Shown in pieces: positions 3,101 to 44,199 of a DNA stretch of 64,000 bases. Position 1 is the first letter of the stretch; every line of letters begins with the position of its first letter. The DNA lies in assembly GCA_019695185.1 (NCBI GenBank), contig JAIBAN010000009.1:1-64000 (forward strand), given 5' to 3'. The notes beneath the pieces are model-generated. The model had not been told where the DNA came from. It did not search any database and worked only from the letters and a program-made list of their open reading frames with translations. Made by a program: the position numbers and the translations under genes. Source of the DNA: Blastocatellia bacterium (lineage in GTDB: Bacteria > Acidobacteriota > Blastocatellia > Chloracidobacteriales > Chloracidobacteriaceae).

Positions 3101-4179
3101 TCACCACTTCCGGCGGTATTACCCTGCGAGCCAGTTGGCACATCGGCAGCGGCAGTTTTGCCGTGGAAGATACCGGTCCGGGAATCCCTCCCGGAGAAAC
3201 CGAAACGATTTTTGAAGCCTTCGCCCAAACCGCAACCGGACAAAAAGCCAAAGAAGGGACCGGCCTGGGGCTTACCATCAGCCGCAATTTTGTGCGGTTG
3301 ATGGGCGGTGAAATCGGAGTGGAAAGCACAGTCGGGGAAGGCACCACCTTCCGCTTTACCATTCGTCTGCCACTGGCCGCCCAACCGCTGGCCGTGCCGG
3401 ACAAGCGGGTTGTCACCGGGTTGATTTCCCCGGCGACGCCGGTCCGCATTCTGATTGCCGATGACATTTATGAAAACCGGCTCCTGCTGGTCAAACTCTT
3501 GCAGGGAGTTGGTTTTGAAATTGCGGAAGCGGAAAACGGACGGGAAACGCTGGAAATCTGCCGCACCTGGAAACCCGACCTGATTTTCCTTGACCTGCGC
3601 ATGCCGGAACTGGATGGATTTGCCACAACCCAGGCAATAAGGCTTCAGGGTTCGGGTTTCAGGGTTCAGGGTTCAGGCAATCTTCCGGCAATGCAGCTAG
3701 AAGCGGAAACTCAAAACCCAAAACGAACAACTCAAACCGCCGAAAATCCCTTAAACCCTGAACCCCGAACCCTGAACCCTGTGATTGTGGCCCTCACAGC
3801 TTCAGCCTTTGATCATGACCGGGAGCGGGTGATGTCACTTGGTTGTGACGATTTTCTGACAAAACCCTTTCAAGAAAGCCAGATTTTTGAAACAATACGC
3901 AAACACTTAGGAGTTGAGTACCGGTATGCCACCTCTGCCCCGCTGGTACGGGACCTTGACACCAGGGTTATCCTGACTCCGATCCGATTGGCATCAATCA
4001 AAGCGGACACCTTGGCGGAATTGTATAGCGCCCTCAGCAGTGGCGATGACCAGGAAGCATTGCGGGCAATTGCCCAGGTAGCGGAATACGACCCGGCGCT
4101 GGGCCAAAAATTGCAGCGCATGGTCAAGAATTTTCAACTTGATGATTTGATGGATTTAATTGAACGAATACCCAAATGA
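106..4179 (+). CDS. Hybrid two-component sensor histidine kinase with periplasmic beta-propeller
   Basis: This 1357-residue protein is a one-piece sensor, kinase and receiver. A signal peptide (about residues 1-20) leads into a long run of propeller repeats with recurring LWVGT-type motifs (about 30-680). A Y_Y_Y domain (about 700-790), a membrane segment (about 805-825) and a coiled coil follow. The HisKA domain has the phospho-acceptor His877 in SMSHELRTPL. The ATPase domain has DTGPGIP and GTGLGL boxes. The C-terminal receiver has Asp1163 in FLDLRMPELDG and TKPF. Related hybrid sensors detect extracellular ligands, often polysaccharide fragments; the ligand here is unknown. The receiver carries an in-frame insertion of about 46 residues (about 1180-1225) made of the CCCTGAA-family repeat. 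The stop overlaps the next gene as ATGA, which indicates coupled expression. Confidence 0.93.
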   Translation: MQRLLLMVLVFVSVAPALADQPVRFSRITLEQGLSQNSVNCILQDQRGFLWVGTNDGLNRYDGYGFTVFRNNPNRPGSLTGNLVETLLEDKQGTLWVGTDNGLNRFDPQTETFTTYITEPNNPYSLPSSDVHSLCEMPDGTLLVLTRAGMCLFSPQTGRFLSHHDDPEHPVNRFQRVLASFLLARDGTLWVGAEQMGLIRYEPHAHRSKTYLPAAMYGASVPNQATFVPYQDETGTIWIGQRNGFSRYDPTTDSFAFYKLEAPTPENEARNAVVDIKRGPDGRLWLALESNGLCIFDPASQTLTFHRNDPTVPSSLSRDNLHSLYCDRAGIMWVGTDGGGLCAADPNAQRFQTLTGDRNNPNSLSGNYIRALCEDSAGRIWIGTFQAGITCFDPKSGQYQRFRNDPHNPNSLPHDNIWALCVDWDDTLWIGCDRGLCHFDPKTKRFTSYWDVLPHLVATAVLVDQSKTLWVGLFRGGLFKYDRKQDRFIAYCHDPAKPRSLCQDEVRTIFQDHAGGLWVGTQGGLAKFDPSTESFTNYQHDPRDPRSLSHGSVVSLCEDRNGTLWVGTYGGGLNRFNPATGTFTALREANGLPNDVIYGVQEDSLGNLWMSTNKGLARYTPSTGNIHAYDVTDGLQSNEFNQTAALKTREGVMYFGGIAGLNAFIPEQISSNTYMPPVVLTGFQVFNQPFPLPKSITAAETITVNYQDNVMTFEFAALSFSNPQKNQYAVLLEGFDQTWRLIGTQRSATYTNLDGGTYRFRVKGCNNDGLWNQTGAMVTLVVKPPIWKTPWAYTLYAVTFLGLAYGGMQLRTRTLRFRTHLLETQVRERTAELQASETETRRKALELAVLVEQLKHSEARAKEASHAKSMFLSSMSHELRTPLNAIIGFAQVMERTAHRSLEDREHLAIITRSSEHLLGLINDVLSIAKIEAGQVTLKTETFDLRRLLKGVEDMFRIRTTDKALSFVVDFAPNLPTAVIGDESKLRQVLINLLGNAVKFTTSGGITLRASWHIGSGSFAVEDTGPGIPPGETETIFEAFAQTATGQKAKEGTGLGLTISRNFVRLMGGEIGVESTVGEGTTFRFTIRLPLAAQPLAVPDKRVVTGLISPATPVRILIADDIYENRLLLVKLLQGVGFEIAEAENGRETLEICRTWKPDLIFLDLRMPELDGFATTQAIRLQGSGFRVQGSGNLPAMQLEAETQNPKRTTQTAENPLNPEPRTLNPVIVALTASAFDHDRERVMSLGCDDFLTKPFQESQIFETIRKHLGVEYRYATSAPLVRDLDTRVILTPIRLASIKADTLAELYSALSSGDDQEALRAIAQVAEYDPALGQKLQRMVKNFQLDDLMDLIERIPK
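3641..3780. repeat. Inverted CCCTGAA-type repeat pair inserted in frame within a coding sequence
   Basis: The left arm (about 3644-3676) is built of GGTTCAG units and the right arm (about 3752-3780) of CCCTGAA units, separated by about 75 bp. The element lies between the part of the receiver domain ending in ATTQAIR and the beta strand starting VIVALTA. It therefore adds about 46 low-complexity residues without breaking the frame. Confidence 0.9.
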
Positions 4180-5723
4180 CTGCCGGCAGCATCTTCATCA
4201 TTGACGACAATCCTAACAACCTCAATTTGTTAGCTGAAATTTTGCGACATCAGGGGTTTGAAGTTCGGGCAGCCAACTCAGGCCGGCGGGGATTGGCGGC
4301 CATTCGTAACTTGATGCCCGAACTGATTATGCTCGACATCACCATGCCGGGCATGGATGGATATGAAGTCTGCGCCGAGTTGAAAAATGAACTCGTCACC
4401 CGTGATATTCCCGTGATTTTTATCAGCGCGCTGGACGATGCCGGAGATAAAGTCCGAGCCTTTGAAGCGGGCGGGGTGGATTATGTGACCAAGCCGTTTT
4501 CTTCGGCTGAAGTGATTGCCAGAGTCCAGACCCAACTCAAACTGGCACGGCTGCGCCAGGAACTGGAAGCCAACAAAAAAGAACTGGAACGGCAAAACGC
4601 CGAACTCCGCCGCAAAAACGAAGAGTTGATTCAAGCTCAAAAACAAACCAATCTGGTTTTTTCGGCGTTGGCCGAAGCCCTGCCCGGAACCGTGCTGGAT
4701 GGCAAATACCGGCTTGACCGGCAGATTGGTTCCGGCGGGTTCAGCGCCGTGTTTCGCGGAACCCATCTGGCGCTGGACACCCCGGTGGCGGTCAAGGTTT
4801 TTCGCCCGATTCCCGGTAATGACCAACCGGAAGCGCTGGAACGCTTCCGCCGTGAAGGGGTTTCAGCGTGCCGGATTCAGCACCAGAATGCCGTTCAGGT
4901 TTTGGACTCAGGAATTTCCGCCAATGGAATCGCCTATCTGGTGATGGAACTGCTCAACGGGCGGACCCTCAACTCCGAACTCCGGGAACAAAGGATTTTG
5001 TCTCCGGCCCGCTGCGCTCAGATTGCCGTCCCGGTCTGCGATGTGTTGGCCAAAGCCCATTCCAACGGTATCGTCCACCGGGACATCAAGCCGGACAATA
5101 TCTTCCTCCATCGGCACGAACGGGGTGAAACCGTCAAAGTGCTTGATTTCGGAATTGCCAAATTGTTTATGGATACGGGCGAAGACGGGCAGCACCTGAC
5201 CATCACCGGCGGGCTGATTGGAACCCCCTATTACATGGCTCCGGAACGGTTTCAGGGTGAACCCTATGATGGGCAATCAGATGTCTACAGTCTGGGAATC
5301 CTGCTCTATCAGATGCTCTGTGGAAAACTGCCATTCATTTCCAAAACCAACAACATGTGGGAAGCCGGGATGGTCCATATCGGCCAGCAACCCAAACCGC
5401 TGACTGAAATCAACAACAGTATTCCGGTTGAAGTTGAAACCATCGTACTCAAAGCGTTGGAAAAAAATCCGGCCCAACGTCCGACCGCCTCTGAGTTTGG
5501 CCGCATGTGGGCTCAGGTGGCCGCAGTCCATGCAGTGGAATTCATTGGCCGCATGAGTGGCAACTTTGAGCTGCCTCTACCTGTGATTGAACCGACCTTG
5601 GTCCAGGGTTCAGCAAGTCCGGATGCGGGCACCATTTTTGAAGCGGCAGGTGCCACCAAAGTGGAACCCGGCCCAACGCAGATGCCGACGGTTCGTCCTC
5701 CGACTCAAATTGAAGAACCCTGA
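4176..5723 (+). CDS. Receiver domain fused to Ser/Thr protein kinase
   Basis: This 515-residue protein starts with a CheY-like receiver (about 5-120, acceptor Asp54 in MLDITMPGMDG). A charged coiled coil (about 128-160) leads to a Hanks-type kinase domain (about 176-435). The kinase motifs look intact: glycine loop GSGGFSAVFRG, Lys207 in VAVKVF, Asp303 in HRDIKPDN, DFG Asp324 and an APE-type segment. The C-terminal tail of about 80 residues is proline-rich and lacks obvious domains. The start codon overlaps the stop of the hybrid sensor kinase, so the two are probably co-translated. Phosphotransfer from that kinase to Asp54 could control Ser/Thr kinase activity; this is inferred from gene order. 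No transmembrane segment is seen, so it is probably cytoplasmic. Confidence 0.93.
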   Translation: MTAGSIFIIDDNPNNLNLLAEILRHQGFEVRAANSGRRGLAAIRNLMPELIMLDITMPGMDGYEVCAELKNELVTRDIPVIFISALDDAGDKVRAFEAGGVDYVTKPFSSAEVIARVQTQLKLARLRQELEANKKELERQNAELRRKNEELIQAQKQTNLVFSALAEALPGTVLDGKYRLDRQIGSGGFSAVFRGTHLALDTPVAVKVFRPIPGNDQPEALERFRREGVSACRIQHQNAVQVLDSGISANGIAYLVMELLNGRTLNSELREQRILSPARCAQIAVPVCDVLAKAHSNGIVHRDIKPDNIFLHRHERGETVKVLDFGIAKLFMDTGEDGQHLTITGGLIGTPYYMAPERFQGEPYDGQSDVYSLGILLYQMLCGKLPFISKTNNMWEAGMVHIGQQPKPLTEINNSIPVEVETIVLKALEKNPAQRPTASEFGRMWAQVAAVHAVEFIGRMSGNFELPLPVIEPTLVQGSASPDAGTIFEAAGATKVEPGPTQMPTVRPPTQIEEP

Positions 5724-42053: not shown

Positions 42054-43319
42054 ATGTCCCAATTTACAATCAAACCCGACCTGACTGAAACGCCGTTTGA
42101 CCGGCAGGAGCGCATCGGCTGGTGGAAGCAGGATATTTTACGGCAAGCTCGCATTCTGGTGGTGGGAGCCGGTGCTTTGGGAAATGAAGCGCTCAAAAAT
42201 CTGCTTCTTTTGGGGGCTACCCGAATTCTGGTGATAGACTTTGACACCATTTCCATGTCCAACCTGAGTCGGACGCTCCTCTTTCGGACAGAAGACATCG
42301 GGCAGCCGAAAGCCCCGCTCGCAGCAACACGGGCCCGTGATCTCGCCCTTGAACCATCAGCTAAAATCATTGGATTGAACGCCGATTTGGTTTGGGATGT
42401 GGGTTGGGGGTTGGTGCGCCGCATGGACTTGATTCTTGGTTGCGTGGATAACGACGAAGCCCGTCTGACGATCAATCGAATGGCACGAGCAGTTGGGGTT
42501 CCCTGGATTAACGCCGGAATATTTGAACTGACCGGCAGTGTCACAGTCTTTGCCGGACAGGCAGCCTGTTTTGAATGTGCAGTCACAGCCGACCAGATTG
42601 CCGATGCCCGTTCCCGTTATGATTCCTGCGAACAGGTCAAAAAACGCTATCTGGAAACAGAACGACTGCCCACAGTACAGGTTACGTCGGCGATTGTTTC
42701 GGGCCTACAAGTTCAGGAAGCCGTTAAACTTCTCCATGGAGAATCAGTCGCTGATGGTGTCAAACTTGTCTATAACGGGTCAACCCAACGGTTTCATACC
42801 ATTCAGTTGCCGGAAATCCCTCACTGTCTCGCTCATGGCCGGTTTGAGGCCATCCGGGAGCTTCCTGCCAGCGCCCGCACCACAACCTTGGAACAATTTC
42901 TCGACCTCGTTGAACAGGACCTTGGCAGACCAGTCACGGTTGATCTCGGACGCCGTTTTCTGATCCGAATTCGGTGCCGGATGTGCAGTTGTTGGGTGGA
43001 ATTGAACCGACCGGTGCATCGGGTTTTCGATGACGAGACCTTTTGCCCGAACTGTCGCACGGGAAACCACACCTCGGTACCGACTGCTACGCCTGCAACA
43101 ACCGAGGCCTATGTCGAGGATGCCACCCGTTTCTCCCGGACCAGATTTGGGAGCTTTGAAATGACATCGGACCGTCGGCACATGACTCTGTGGGAGGTCG
43201 GAGTGCCACCGCTCCATCTGCTTTCTGTGACCAATGACCAAGGCGAGCGATTCACCTATGAACTGACCGGCGATACCACAGAATTTCTGGCTGACTGGGA
43301 TTCGGAAATCCGGTCCTGA
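42054..43319 (+). CDS. E1-like (ThiF/MoeB family) adenylyltransferase with C-terminal zinc domain
   Basis: The 421-residue enzyme has the E1 Rossmann loop VVGAGALGNE (Gly38-Gly43), FDTISMSNLSR (Arg73) and GCVDNDEARLTINR with the adenylation Asp. A zinc site of MoeB spacing is present: Cys172, Cys175, Cys258 and His261. Cys192 is at the position where MoeB/ThiF have their conserved Cys, followed by TSAIVSGLQVQEAVKLLHG. E1-like enzymes adenylate the C-terminal Gly of ubiquitin-like proteins. Residues 300-335 form a second zinc ribbon (Cys308, Cys311, Cys331, Cys334), and about 85 more residues follow. A ubiquitin-like protein ending in Gly-Gly is encoded 570 bp downstream. Confidence 0.9.
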   Translation: MSQFTIKPDLTETPFDRQERIGWWKQDILRQARILVVGAGALGNEALKNLLLLGATRILVIDFDTISMSNLSRTLLFRTEDIGQPKAPLAATRARDLALEPSAKIIGLNADLVWDVGWGLVRRMDLILGCVDNDEARLTINRMARAVGVPWINAGIFELTGSVTVFAGQAACFECAVTADQIADARSRYDSCEQVKKRYLETERLPTVQVTSAIVSGLQVQEAVKLLHGESVADGVKLVYNGSTQRFHTIQLPEIPHCLAHGRFEAIRELPASARTTTLEQFLDLVEQDLGRPVTVDLGRRFLIRIRCRMCSCWVELNRPVHRVFDDETFCPNCRTGNHTSVPTATPATTEAYVEDATRFSRTRFGSFEMTSDRRHMTLWEVGVPPLHLLSVTNDQGERFTYELTGDTTEFLADWDSEIRS

Positions 43320-43482
43320 TTACCAAAAATCAGTCCGGTTTCGCGTGTGGGTTTGAAACAACGGACAGGAATGCTACAGTTTCAGACAGAGACGAAATTT
43401 TTTCCGGTGATCACGCCTCTCGGGCATGTATATTCCGATTTGAGAACCCGAACCTCACGGATTCTGATTCCAAGGGGGGAAA

Positions 43483-43797
43483 ATGGATTTTTTGGCAGTT
43501 GGAGCCTTGTTTTTCCTGGTGGTGGTGGCTATTTCAGTGGGAATTGAACTCCAGGAACGATATCTCGGCGAAGGTGGTGCTGATGGCGGGGAGCGTGGGT
43601 TCCGCCTGCTCCCACGGCGCAATTACCGACAACTGCACGGAGAAAATTACGCCGCTCCATTGCTCCCCGCAGTGCCGCCAGGCAAGTTCCAGGTGAAACG
43701 CCAGGAACAAGCCAACCGTTGTGAAATCTGTCATCAACAGGATAGATTTGACTTGACAACCGGTCACTGTTCCCGCTGCAATCATCAGACCCATTGA
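43483..43797 (+). CDS. Small membrane protein with C-terminal zinc knuckle
   Basis: The 104-residue protein has one N-terminal membrane helix (about 3-21), a linker rich in Gly, Pro and Arg, and a C-terminal knuckle. The knuckle is Cys80, Cys83, Cys96 and Cys99 (C-x2-C-x12-C-x2-C), followed by His101 and His104. A strong AAGGGGGGA precedes the ATG, which settles the start. The knuckle is too short for a full RING finger but resembles half of one or a zinc ribbon. It lies between the E1-like gene and the ubiquitin-like gene in the same direction, so a link to them is inferred. No family was recognised. Confidence 0.75.
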   Translation: MDFLAVGALFFLVVVAISVGIELQERYLGEGGADGGERGFRLLPRRNYRQLHGENYAAPLLPAVPPGKFQVKRQEQANRCEICHQQDRFDLTTGHCSRCNHQTH

Positions 43798-43890
43798 AAC
43801 CGTCAGGGCCTGAAGCGGTGCCATTCATAAAAGTCTTTGTGAATTAAATTTATTGAATTGAGGAGGAAGCCTCCGGGCTTACAGTCACGC

Positions 43891-44199
43891 ATGTCGGATA
43901 TTGACGTTACCTTTCGAAATGAAAACAACGGAAAAGAAGTTGAAGTGACCGTCTCCGATGATATGACCGCCGATGCCATCTTACGCAATCTGGCCGATGC
44001 CGGACTGGTCCCCAGTGTTCCCGGCACAACTCTGGTTTTTCGCAACACACAACTTCGTCCAGGTCAGACATTGGCCCAGGCAGGGATTGTTTCCGGTGAC
44101 ACCATCAGTATTTTCCTCAACACCCGAGGCGGTTGCCACCATTTCCGGACCGCATTGACTAGTAACATTTCTTCCTTCAAATTTGAAAAAGGGGCTTGA
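43891..44199 (+). CDS. Ubiquitin-like beta-grasp protein with Gly-Gly and a C-terminal tail
   Basis: The 102-residue protein is ubiquitin-sized: IDVTFRNENNGKEVEVTV gives the first hairpin, ADAILRNLADAGLV the helix and TTLVFRNTQLRPGQTLAQAG the following strands. The last strand, DTISIFLNTRGG, places a di-glycine at residues 80-81, as in ubiquitin and its relatives. A tail of 21 residues follows, so a protease would have to expose the Gly-Gly, as in pro-forms of SUMO or ubiquitin. EsaB/YukD and sulfur-carrier proteins share this fold, and YukD-type proteins normally lack the Gly-Gly. An E1-like enzyme is encoded just upstream. The start is the ATG at 43891; a hairpin GGAGG-AAG-CCTCC lies in its leader. 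Confidence 0.78.
   Translation: MSDIDVTFRNENNGKEVEVTVSDDMTADAILRNLADAGLVPSVPGTTLVFRNTQLRPGQTLAQAGIVSGDTISIFLNTRGGCHHFRTALTSNISSFKFEKGA

Follow-up and report, generated by a model that had tools for sequence, protein, structure and literature searches.

A likely ubiquitin-like conjugation cascade with a membrane zinc-knuckle partner in one order of Blastocatellia

Bacterial gene neighbourhoods that combine an E1-like enzyme, an E2, a JAB protease and a ubiquitin-like protein (Ubl) are already known (Iyer 2006, PMC1779556), and Burroughs 2011 is reported to describe such neighbourhoods as well. As in the system analysed here, the Ubl, E1, E2 and JAB are encoded by individual genes that lie near one another, and the Ubl is of the YukD/ubiquitin type. 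These neighbourhoods are described, however, as families of operons with a scattered occurrence in distantly related bacteria, partly on mobile elements. Earlier descriptions present complete bacterial Ubl cascades as sporadic, and frequently as linked to conflict or defence. One archaeal pro-ubiquitin carries a 9-residue extension, which an Rpn11/JAMM homologue removes before E1 and E2 use the protein (PMC5654768). In contrast to the scattered bacterial families, the system described below occurs in every examined genome of one order, gives concordant trees and includes a membrane zinc-knuckle partner, with no RING found.

The window is the 64,000-nucleotide stretch that was analysed, part of an 8.3 Mb Blastocatellia genome (G000). 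A preliminary description, made without database searches, had placed three genes in it: an E1-like gene with a second C-terminal zinc ribbon, a gene for a membrane protein with a C-x2-C-x12-C-x2-C knuckle (TM/Zn) and a gene for a Ubl ending in Arg-Gly-Gly near residue 81, followed by a 21-residue tail. All of these claims held, with open reading frames and domains confirmed (table 1). The same description had left the choice between ubiquitin-like conjugation and a sulfur-carrier system, and had seen no E2 or JAB gene in the window. Both genes were found on a different contig, C82, of this genome; conjugation is now strongly supported, while the sulfur-carrier reading is unsupported.

Table 1. 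Coordinates of the features in the window and on contig C82 of the same genome (G000).
Feature	Position	Strand	Remarks
E1-like activating enzyme	42054-43319	+	421 aa; ThiF/MoeB adenylation fold; reading frame as in the preliminary description
FTIK short peptide, E1 N-terminus	42063-42074	+	in G000, G003, G011 and G013; absent in the Chloracidobacterium-like genus
Cys192 codon (SRYDSCE), predicted thioester cysteine	42627-42629	+	invariant, 13/13 orthologues of the order
Second zinc ribbon of E1 (C308-x2-C311...C331-x2-C334)	42975-43055	+	cysteines conserved in aligned orthologues
Membrane zinc-knuckle protein (TM/Zn)	43483-43797	+	104 aa; syntenic across the order
FQVK short peptide just before the TM/Zn knuckle	43687-43698	+	also in the E2 tail and at the N-termini of JAB and E1
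Zinc knuckle C80-x2-C83-x12-C96-x2-C99 (RCEICHQ...CSRC)	43720-43779	+	four Cys invariant in 14 orthologues
Ubl, 102-aa precursor	43891-44199	+	81-aa beta-grasp core and 21-aa tail
Arg-Gly-Gly (residues 79-81), predicted mature C-terminus	44125-44133	+	LNTRGG invariant, 14/14
21-residue C-terminal tail, predicted to be removed (putative JAB substrate)	44134-44196	+	orthologue tails of 0-21 residues, unrelated
E2 gene	C82:4944-5495	-	found with the profile from the sister-family E2
JAB gene	C82:3970-4770	-	neighbour of E2

Components of the putative cascade

The E1-like enzyme matched the Pfam ThiF family (PF00899, E-value 2.9e-47) over a single ThiF domain, and its closest PDB structures were the SUMO E1 subunit SAE2 (9.6e-24) and MoeB (1.2e-21). 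Alignment of 13 orthologues revealed invariant GAGALGNE, NLSR (R73), K86, CVDND (D132) and Cys192, the last in a crossover loop before LPTxQ, which is the position of ThiF C184 and UBA5 C250. The enzyme thus has the adenylation residues and the catalytic cysteine expected of a conjugating E1, although its activity is inferred. A C/C/C/H zinc site (C172/C175/C258/H261) is separate from the C-terminal ribbon, and the part beyond that ribbon could be UFD-like, by inference only.

The Ubl scored above the Pfam cut-off for the Rad60-SLD/SUMO-like family (28.1 vs 23.8 bits) and below the cut-offs for YukD (23.5 vs 27) and ubiquitin. When modelled from 12 orthologues (mean pLDDT 71), the Ubl returned ubiquitin in nearly all of its top 50 PDB matches, with TM-scores mostly around 0.7-0.77 (by target length) and a modest best E-value of 7e-4; structure prediction, one of the checks proposed beforehand, therefore gave a ubiquitin fold. 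The E-values against polyubiquitin were set aside as evidence because they are inflated by the repeats, single-domain scores being about 17 bits.

Each of the 14 genomes of the order encodes exactly one Ubl, 76-87% identical over residues 1 to about 83 and divergent immediately beyond. The invariant LNTRGG is followed directly by a stop codon in G005, G007 and G009, by a single residue in G011 (A), G013 (S) and G012 (H), and by 7-21 unrelated residues in the other eight genomes, the window's tail being the longest. Since LNTRGG is invariant and the sequence beyond it is unrelated and often absent, the Gly-Gly end is more than chance. A variable or missing tail beside an invariant Gly-Gly is probably that of a removable pro-peptide, a reading inferred from sequence alone, and maturation by a JAMM enzyme is proposed by analogy with archaeal pro-ubiquitin (PMC5654768). 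The core contains one lysine, K15, in all 14 genomes. Purifying selection on the Ubl is strong (pN/pS about 0.08 for G000 vs G003, 0.058/0.707), with the caveat that synonymous sites are near or past saturation in wider pairs. Identity between families is 74-84% for the Ubl core, 60-69% for E2, 46-55% for E1 and 43-49% for JAB; in these comparisons the modifier is the slowest-evolving part, as with ubiquitin.

The Ubl might instead be a non-covalent YukD/EsaB-like protein, with the E1 an incidental neighbour. The YukD match lies just below its cut-off, and Bacillus YukD is not conjugated (PMC1779556). Against this stand the RGG, which never varies and forms the free end in three genomes, and the presence of E1, E2 and JAB alongside the Ubl throughout the order, and we regard this alternative as very unlikely.

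E2 and JAB were located with profiles built from the genes downstream of the Ubl in the sister family f2, which detected exactly one of each in all 14 genomes of the order. Cys95 of the E2 never varies, and the protein also carries an HPH motif. Its Pfam score is under the cut-off (21.4 vs 27 bits). A profile search against the PDB returned mostly E2s, UBE2W being the best, with the HPH motif and the catalytic cysteine aligned; the structural model, good to residue 120 and poor beyond 121, also gave E2s in a fold search. UBE2W modifies protein N-termini, and it is possible, as speculation, that such a mode carries over to this E2. The JAB protein carries the JAMM signature HTHP...S-x2-D and scored above the Pfam JAB cut-off (33.6 vs 22.5 bits). 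On C82, the pair (3970-5495) is flanked by endonuclease III-like and methyltransferase-like genes on one side and a UbiE-like gene on the other.

These results bear on the sulfur-carrier alternative, in which the E1 would make a Ubl thiocarboxylate and JAB would merely mature or release the Ubl. In its favour, the E1 has an adenylation domain of MoeB/ThiF type, and JAB proteins are generally known in some sulfur-carrier operons, as also described by Iyer 2006 (PMC1779556). It is opposed by the presence of an E2 with a catalytic cysteine in all 14 genomes, by the match of the Ubl to SUMO/ubiquitin rather than ThiS/MoaD models, and by a separate MoaD-MoeB-rhodanese fusion and a second HesA/MoeB-type enzyme in the genome. 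We consider this alternative very unlikely. The preliminary description had stated that its own reading of the cluster would be refuted by an E1 that was a plain MoeB/ThiF with its carrier elsewhere; the evidence is against this, because the genome has its own separate fusion. That fusion is a 492-aa frame (contig C121, locus L001) joining MoaD-like, MoeB and rhodanese parts, and it adjoins a cysteine-synthase-like gene.

We favour conjugation, and it is likely that the window's E1, TM/Zn protein and pro-Ubl form a complete ubiquitin-like cascade together with the E2 and JAB of C82. In this cascade JAB would cut the tail after Gly81; the E1 would adenylate the C-terminal glycine and then bind the Ubl through a thioester at Cys192; from there it would be handed to Cys95 of the E2; the E2 would transfer it to amino groups of target proteins, some of them at the membrane with TM/Zn as adaptor; and JAB would later take it off its targets again. 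The presence and conservation of all parts, the Ubl and E2 folds, the catalytic residues and the co-inheritance are shown computationally. Every reaction step, including maturation and the adaptor role, is inferred without biochemistry. Points against the cascade are the sub-cut-off Pfam score of the E2, the lack of any E3 in a search limited to RING types, the split loci and the long tail of the window's Ubl.

Gene order, distribution and inheritance

Looking for co-occurrence of the three genes in related genomes had been proposed as a check, and the trio proved to be adjacent in 13 of the 14 genomes of the order. In the exception, the draft genome G001, the contig breaks off within the TM/Zn gene; this gene sits between those for E1 and Ubl wherever the contig extends far enough. 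Two further outcomes named beforehand as refuting, homologues in close relatives without the Gly-Gly or without an E1 gene beside the beta-grasp gene, were not met: Gly-Gly is kept in all 14, and E1 adjoins the Ubl in 13, wherever the contig allows. A single operon had been called unproven owing to intergenic gaps of 163 and 93 bp. These gaps are real; in G010, from the sister family, the genes are tight or overlapping (E1/TM 4 bp, Ubl/E2 about 19 bp).

The row E1-TM/Zn-Ubl-E2-JAB is found in G011 and G013 and, with one inserted gene, in G012, while G010 has E1-TM-TM-Ubl-E2 with its JAB elsewhere. Members of the window's family have their five genes divided among two or three loci; E2 and JAB are neighbours in G000, G003 and G001 and lie in separate places in the Chloracidobacterium-like genus g3.

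Trees of E1, E2 and JAB each recover both families, f1 and f2, as well as the genus g3 (support 0.66-1.0); that of the short Ubl is unresolved. The E2 is present in 14/14 genomes of the order vs 2/133 other genomes of the class, and in at least 4 of 389 sampled phylum genomes outside the order, a lower bound since few candidates were scored per genome. We conclude that the system has very likely been inherited vertically and order-wide. Vertical inheritance and order-wide presence suggest that it is probably housekeeping; its occurrence in 14/14 genomes likewise suggests such a role and not that of a defence system kept only now and then. A prophage or island origin was rejected on the basis of typical GC, synteny and agreeing trees.

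Anti-phage defence of the Bil or CBASS-conjugation type would use an identical enzyme set, and PADLOC E1-E2 models match weakly and partially. This alternative is nevertheless very unlikely given that the system occurs once per genome across the order with concordant trees, has conserved household neighbours (a tRNA-Gly in the window and, in most members of the window's family, an S1-domain gene) and an ordinary GC content similar to that of the window, and consists of a single Ubl, a single-domain E1 and a separate E2.

Other Ubl loci were noticed outside the order. G128, from another order of the class, has the row Zn protein-E1-Ubl-E2-JAB (locus L152, 5519-8862) with a Ubl ending in AGEQ and no GG, so that GG is not universal outside the order. 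In G308 (L157, 5264-11578), E1-Ubl(EGGLR)-E2-JAB lies near genes resembling type VI secretion TssJ/TssK/TssL. Two genomes carry different Ubl systems: G015 (L091, 8976-14703) combines a RING-like double zinc protein with a Ubl-E2 fusion and a TIR-like protein containing Ubl-like repeats, and G017 (L092, 6347-13197) has a tandem Ubl, an E2, a JAB and a vWA-like protein.

The membrane zinc-knuckle protein and shared terminal peptides

The TM/Zn protein has one N-terminal hydrophobic/TM segment and a C-terminal knuckle, which is likely to be cytoplasmic as inferred from the positive-inside rule. The earlier suggestion of a ligase-like or docking partner remains unresolved. The idea that it is a RING E3 was dropped, as there are only four cysteine ligands forming one mononuclear knuckle, and the protein belongs to an order-restricted family. 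No Prok-RING_1 match above cut-off was detected in the genome, and no homologue of the G015 RING-like protein was found in the order, in a search without a positive control. No RING or other E3 was found, only RING types having been searched. That TM/Zn acts as a membrane adaptor is an inference that we lean slightly against, and it is the weakest step of the mechanism.

A profile of the knuckle family (RCE[IV]CHQxDxF...CxRC) matched proteins in 14/14 genomes of the order and in 0/133 other genomes of the class at threshold. At least 33 members each were counted in G000, G003 and G011, 2 in the small g3 genomes and 4-17 in the rest. Shared ancestry confounds the co-occurrence of this family with the system. 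Among the other members that were inspected, the knuckle is near the N-terminus, ahead of the hydrophobic segments. The window's genome also has tandem arrays (L131, 3428-5509; L132-L135) whose putative membrane products bear an F-x-I-R-like strand at the N-terminus and an RCEICHQ knuckle.

A short peptide, F-x-[IV]-[KR], recurs among the components. It is found twice in most E2 tails (C-terminal copy in 13/14), at the JAB N-terminus in 14/14 and before the TM/Zn knuckle in f1, with a looser version in f2; the E1 N-terminus has the looser form F-x-[IVL]-K/R in the four genomes listed in table 1. Among 181 other proteins of the same stretches, the last 14 residues never contained the looser motif, and the first 18 contained it in 4 proteins. 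This comparison is post hoc, the motif having been spotted before testing. Matched E2/JAB peptides were also seen outside the order: PKLNWR/PKLQWR in Crinalium, RRIKLG/GRIKLG in G017 and KKFEF/KRFEI in G128.

The peptide may be a docking peptide, a suggestion made without binding data, and might, as one guess, touch the Ubl in a SIM-like manner. A bolder joint reading, no more than possible, is an order-wide housekeeping Ubl pathway that works at the membrane and is steered by F-x-[IV]-[KR], with the 2 to more than 30 membrane knuckle proteins per genome, which bear a peptide and knuckle of similar kind, as adaptors or targets. Within this reading, the single Ubl lysine would allow at most one lysine chain linkage, and the loci outside the order with their own matched E2/JAB peptides could point to a general docking code.

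Comparison with described systems

If the system is fixed in the whole order, probably including cultivated Chloracidobacterium, its role in ordinary bacterial life is directly testable. Trypsin would leave the ubiquitin-type Gly-Gly mark on lysines from an Arg-Gly-Gly end, making existing antibodies and proteomic data usable. The open-access literature that we searched held no description of an order-wide bacterial cascade with free Arg-Gly-Gly Ubl ends, a membrane zinc family and shared terminal peptides, and no relevant paper on Chloracidobacterium and ubiquitin-like proteins.

The operon of Caldiarchaeum subterraneum (PMC5654768) is likewise chromosomal and is similar in its pro-ubiquitin with a short tail after Gly-Gly, its E1 and E2, and the Rpn11/JAMM gene that adjoins it. 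It is, however, archaeal and has a small RING E3, whereas here no RING was found and the zinc protein is a membrane protein with a mononuclear site. Ubiquitylation that depends on RING (archaeal srfp / Prok-RING type) needs a binuclear RING E3, which this system does not meet. BilABCD, the bacterial ISG15-like system (PMC11354881), also combines a Ubl, E1, E2 and JAB, and its JAB cleaves the precursor. There, the Ubl domain is doubled in BilA and the adenylation domain in BilD, and BilB has a CEHH motif; the present system has one Ubl, one adenylation domain and an HPH...C E2, is not patchy in the order and does not fulfil the Bil criteria. Nor does it fit the CBASS Cap2 type, in which E1 and E2 are fused in one protein, as its E1 and E2 genes are separate.

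A locus on a Crinalium epipsammum plasmid (NC_019754.1) has the row E1-Ubl-Ubl-E2-JAB, with an E1 34.5% identical over 79%, but the plasmid is mobilizable, there are two Ubls (one ending in EGGY, one without GG) and the terminal peptides are those given above. The FtsH-ternary Ubl conflict systems (Kaur 2020, PMC7159879), which the G015 locus from the same class resembles, likewise hold a complete prokaryotic Ubl conjugation set; their vWA-MoxR, RING, Ubl-E2 fusions and EAD effectors were not seen beside the genes described here. Taken together, the system is of the known bacterial E1/E2/JAB kind, but is likely a distinct, order-wide variant of it.
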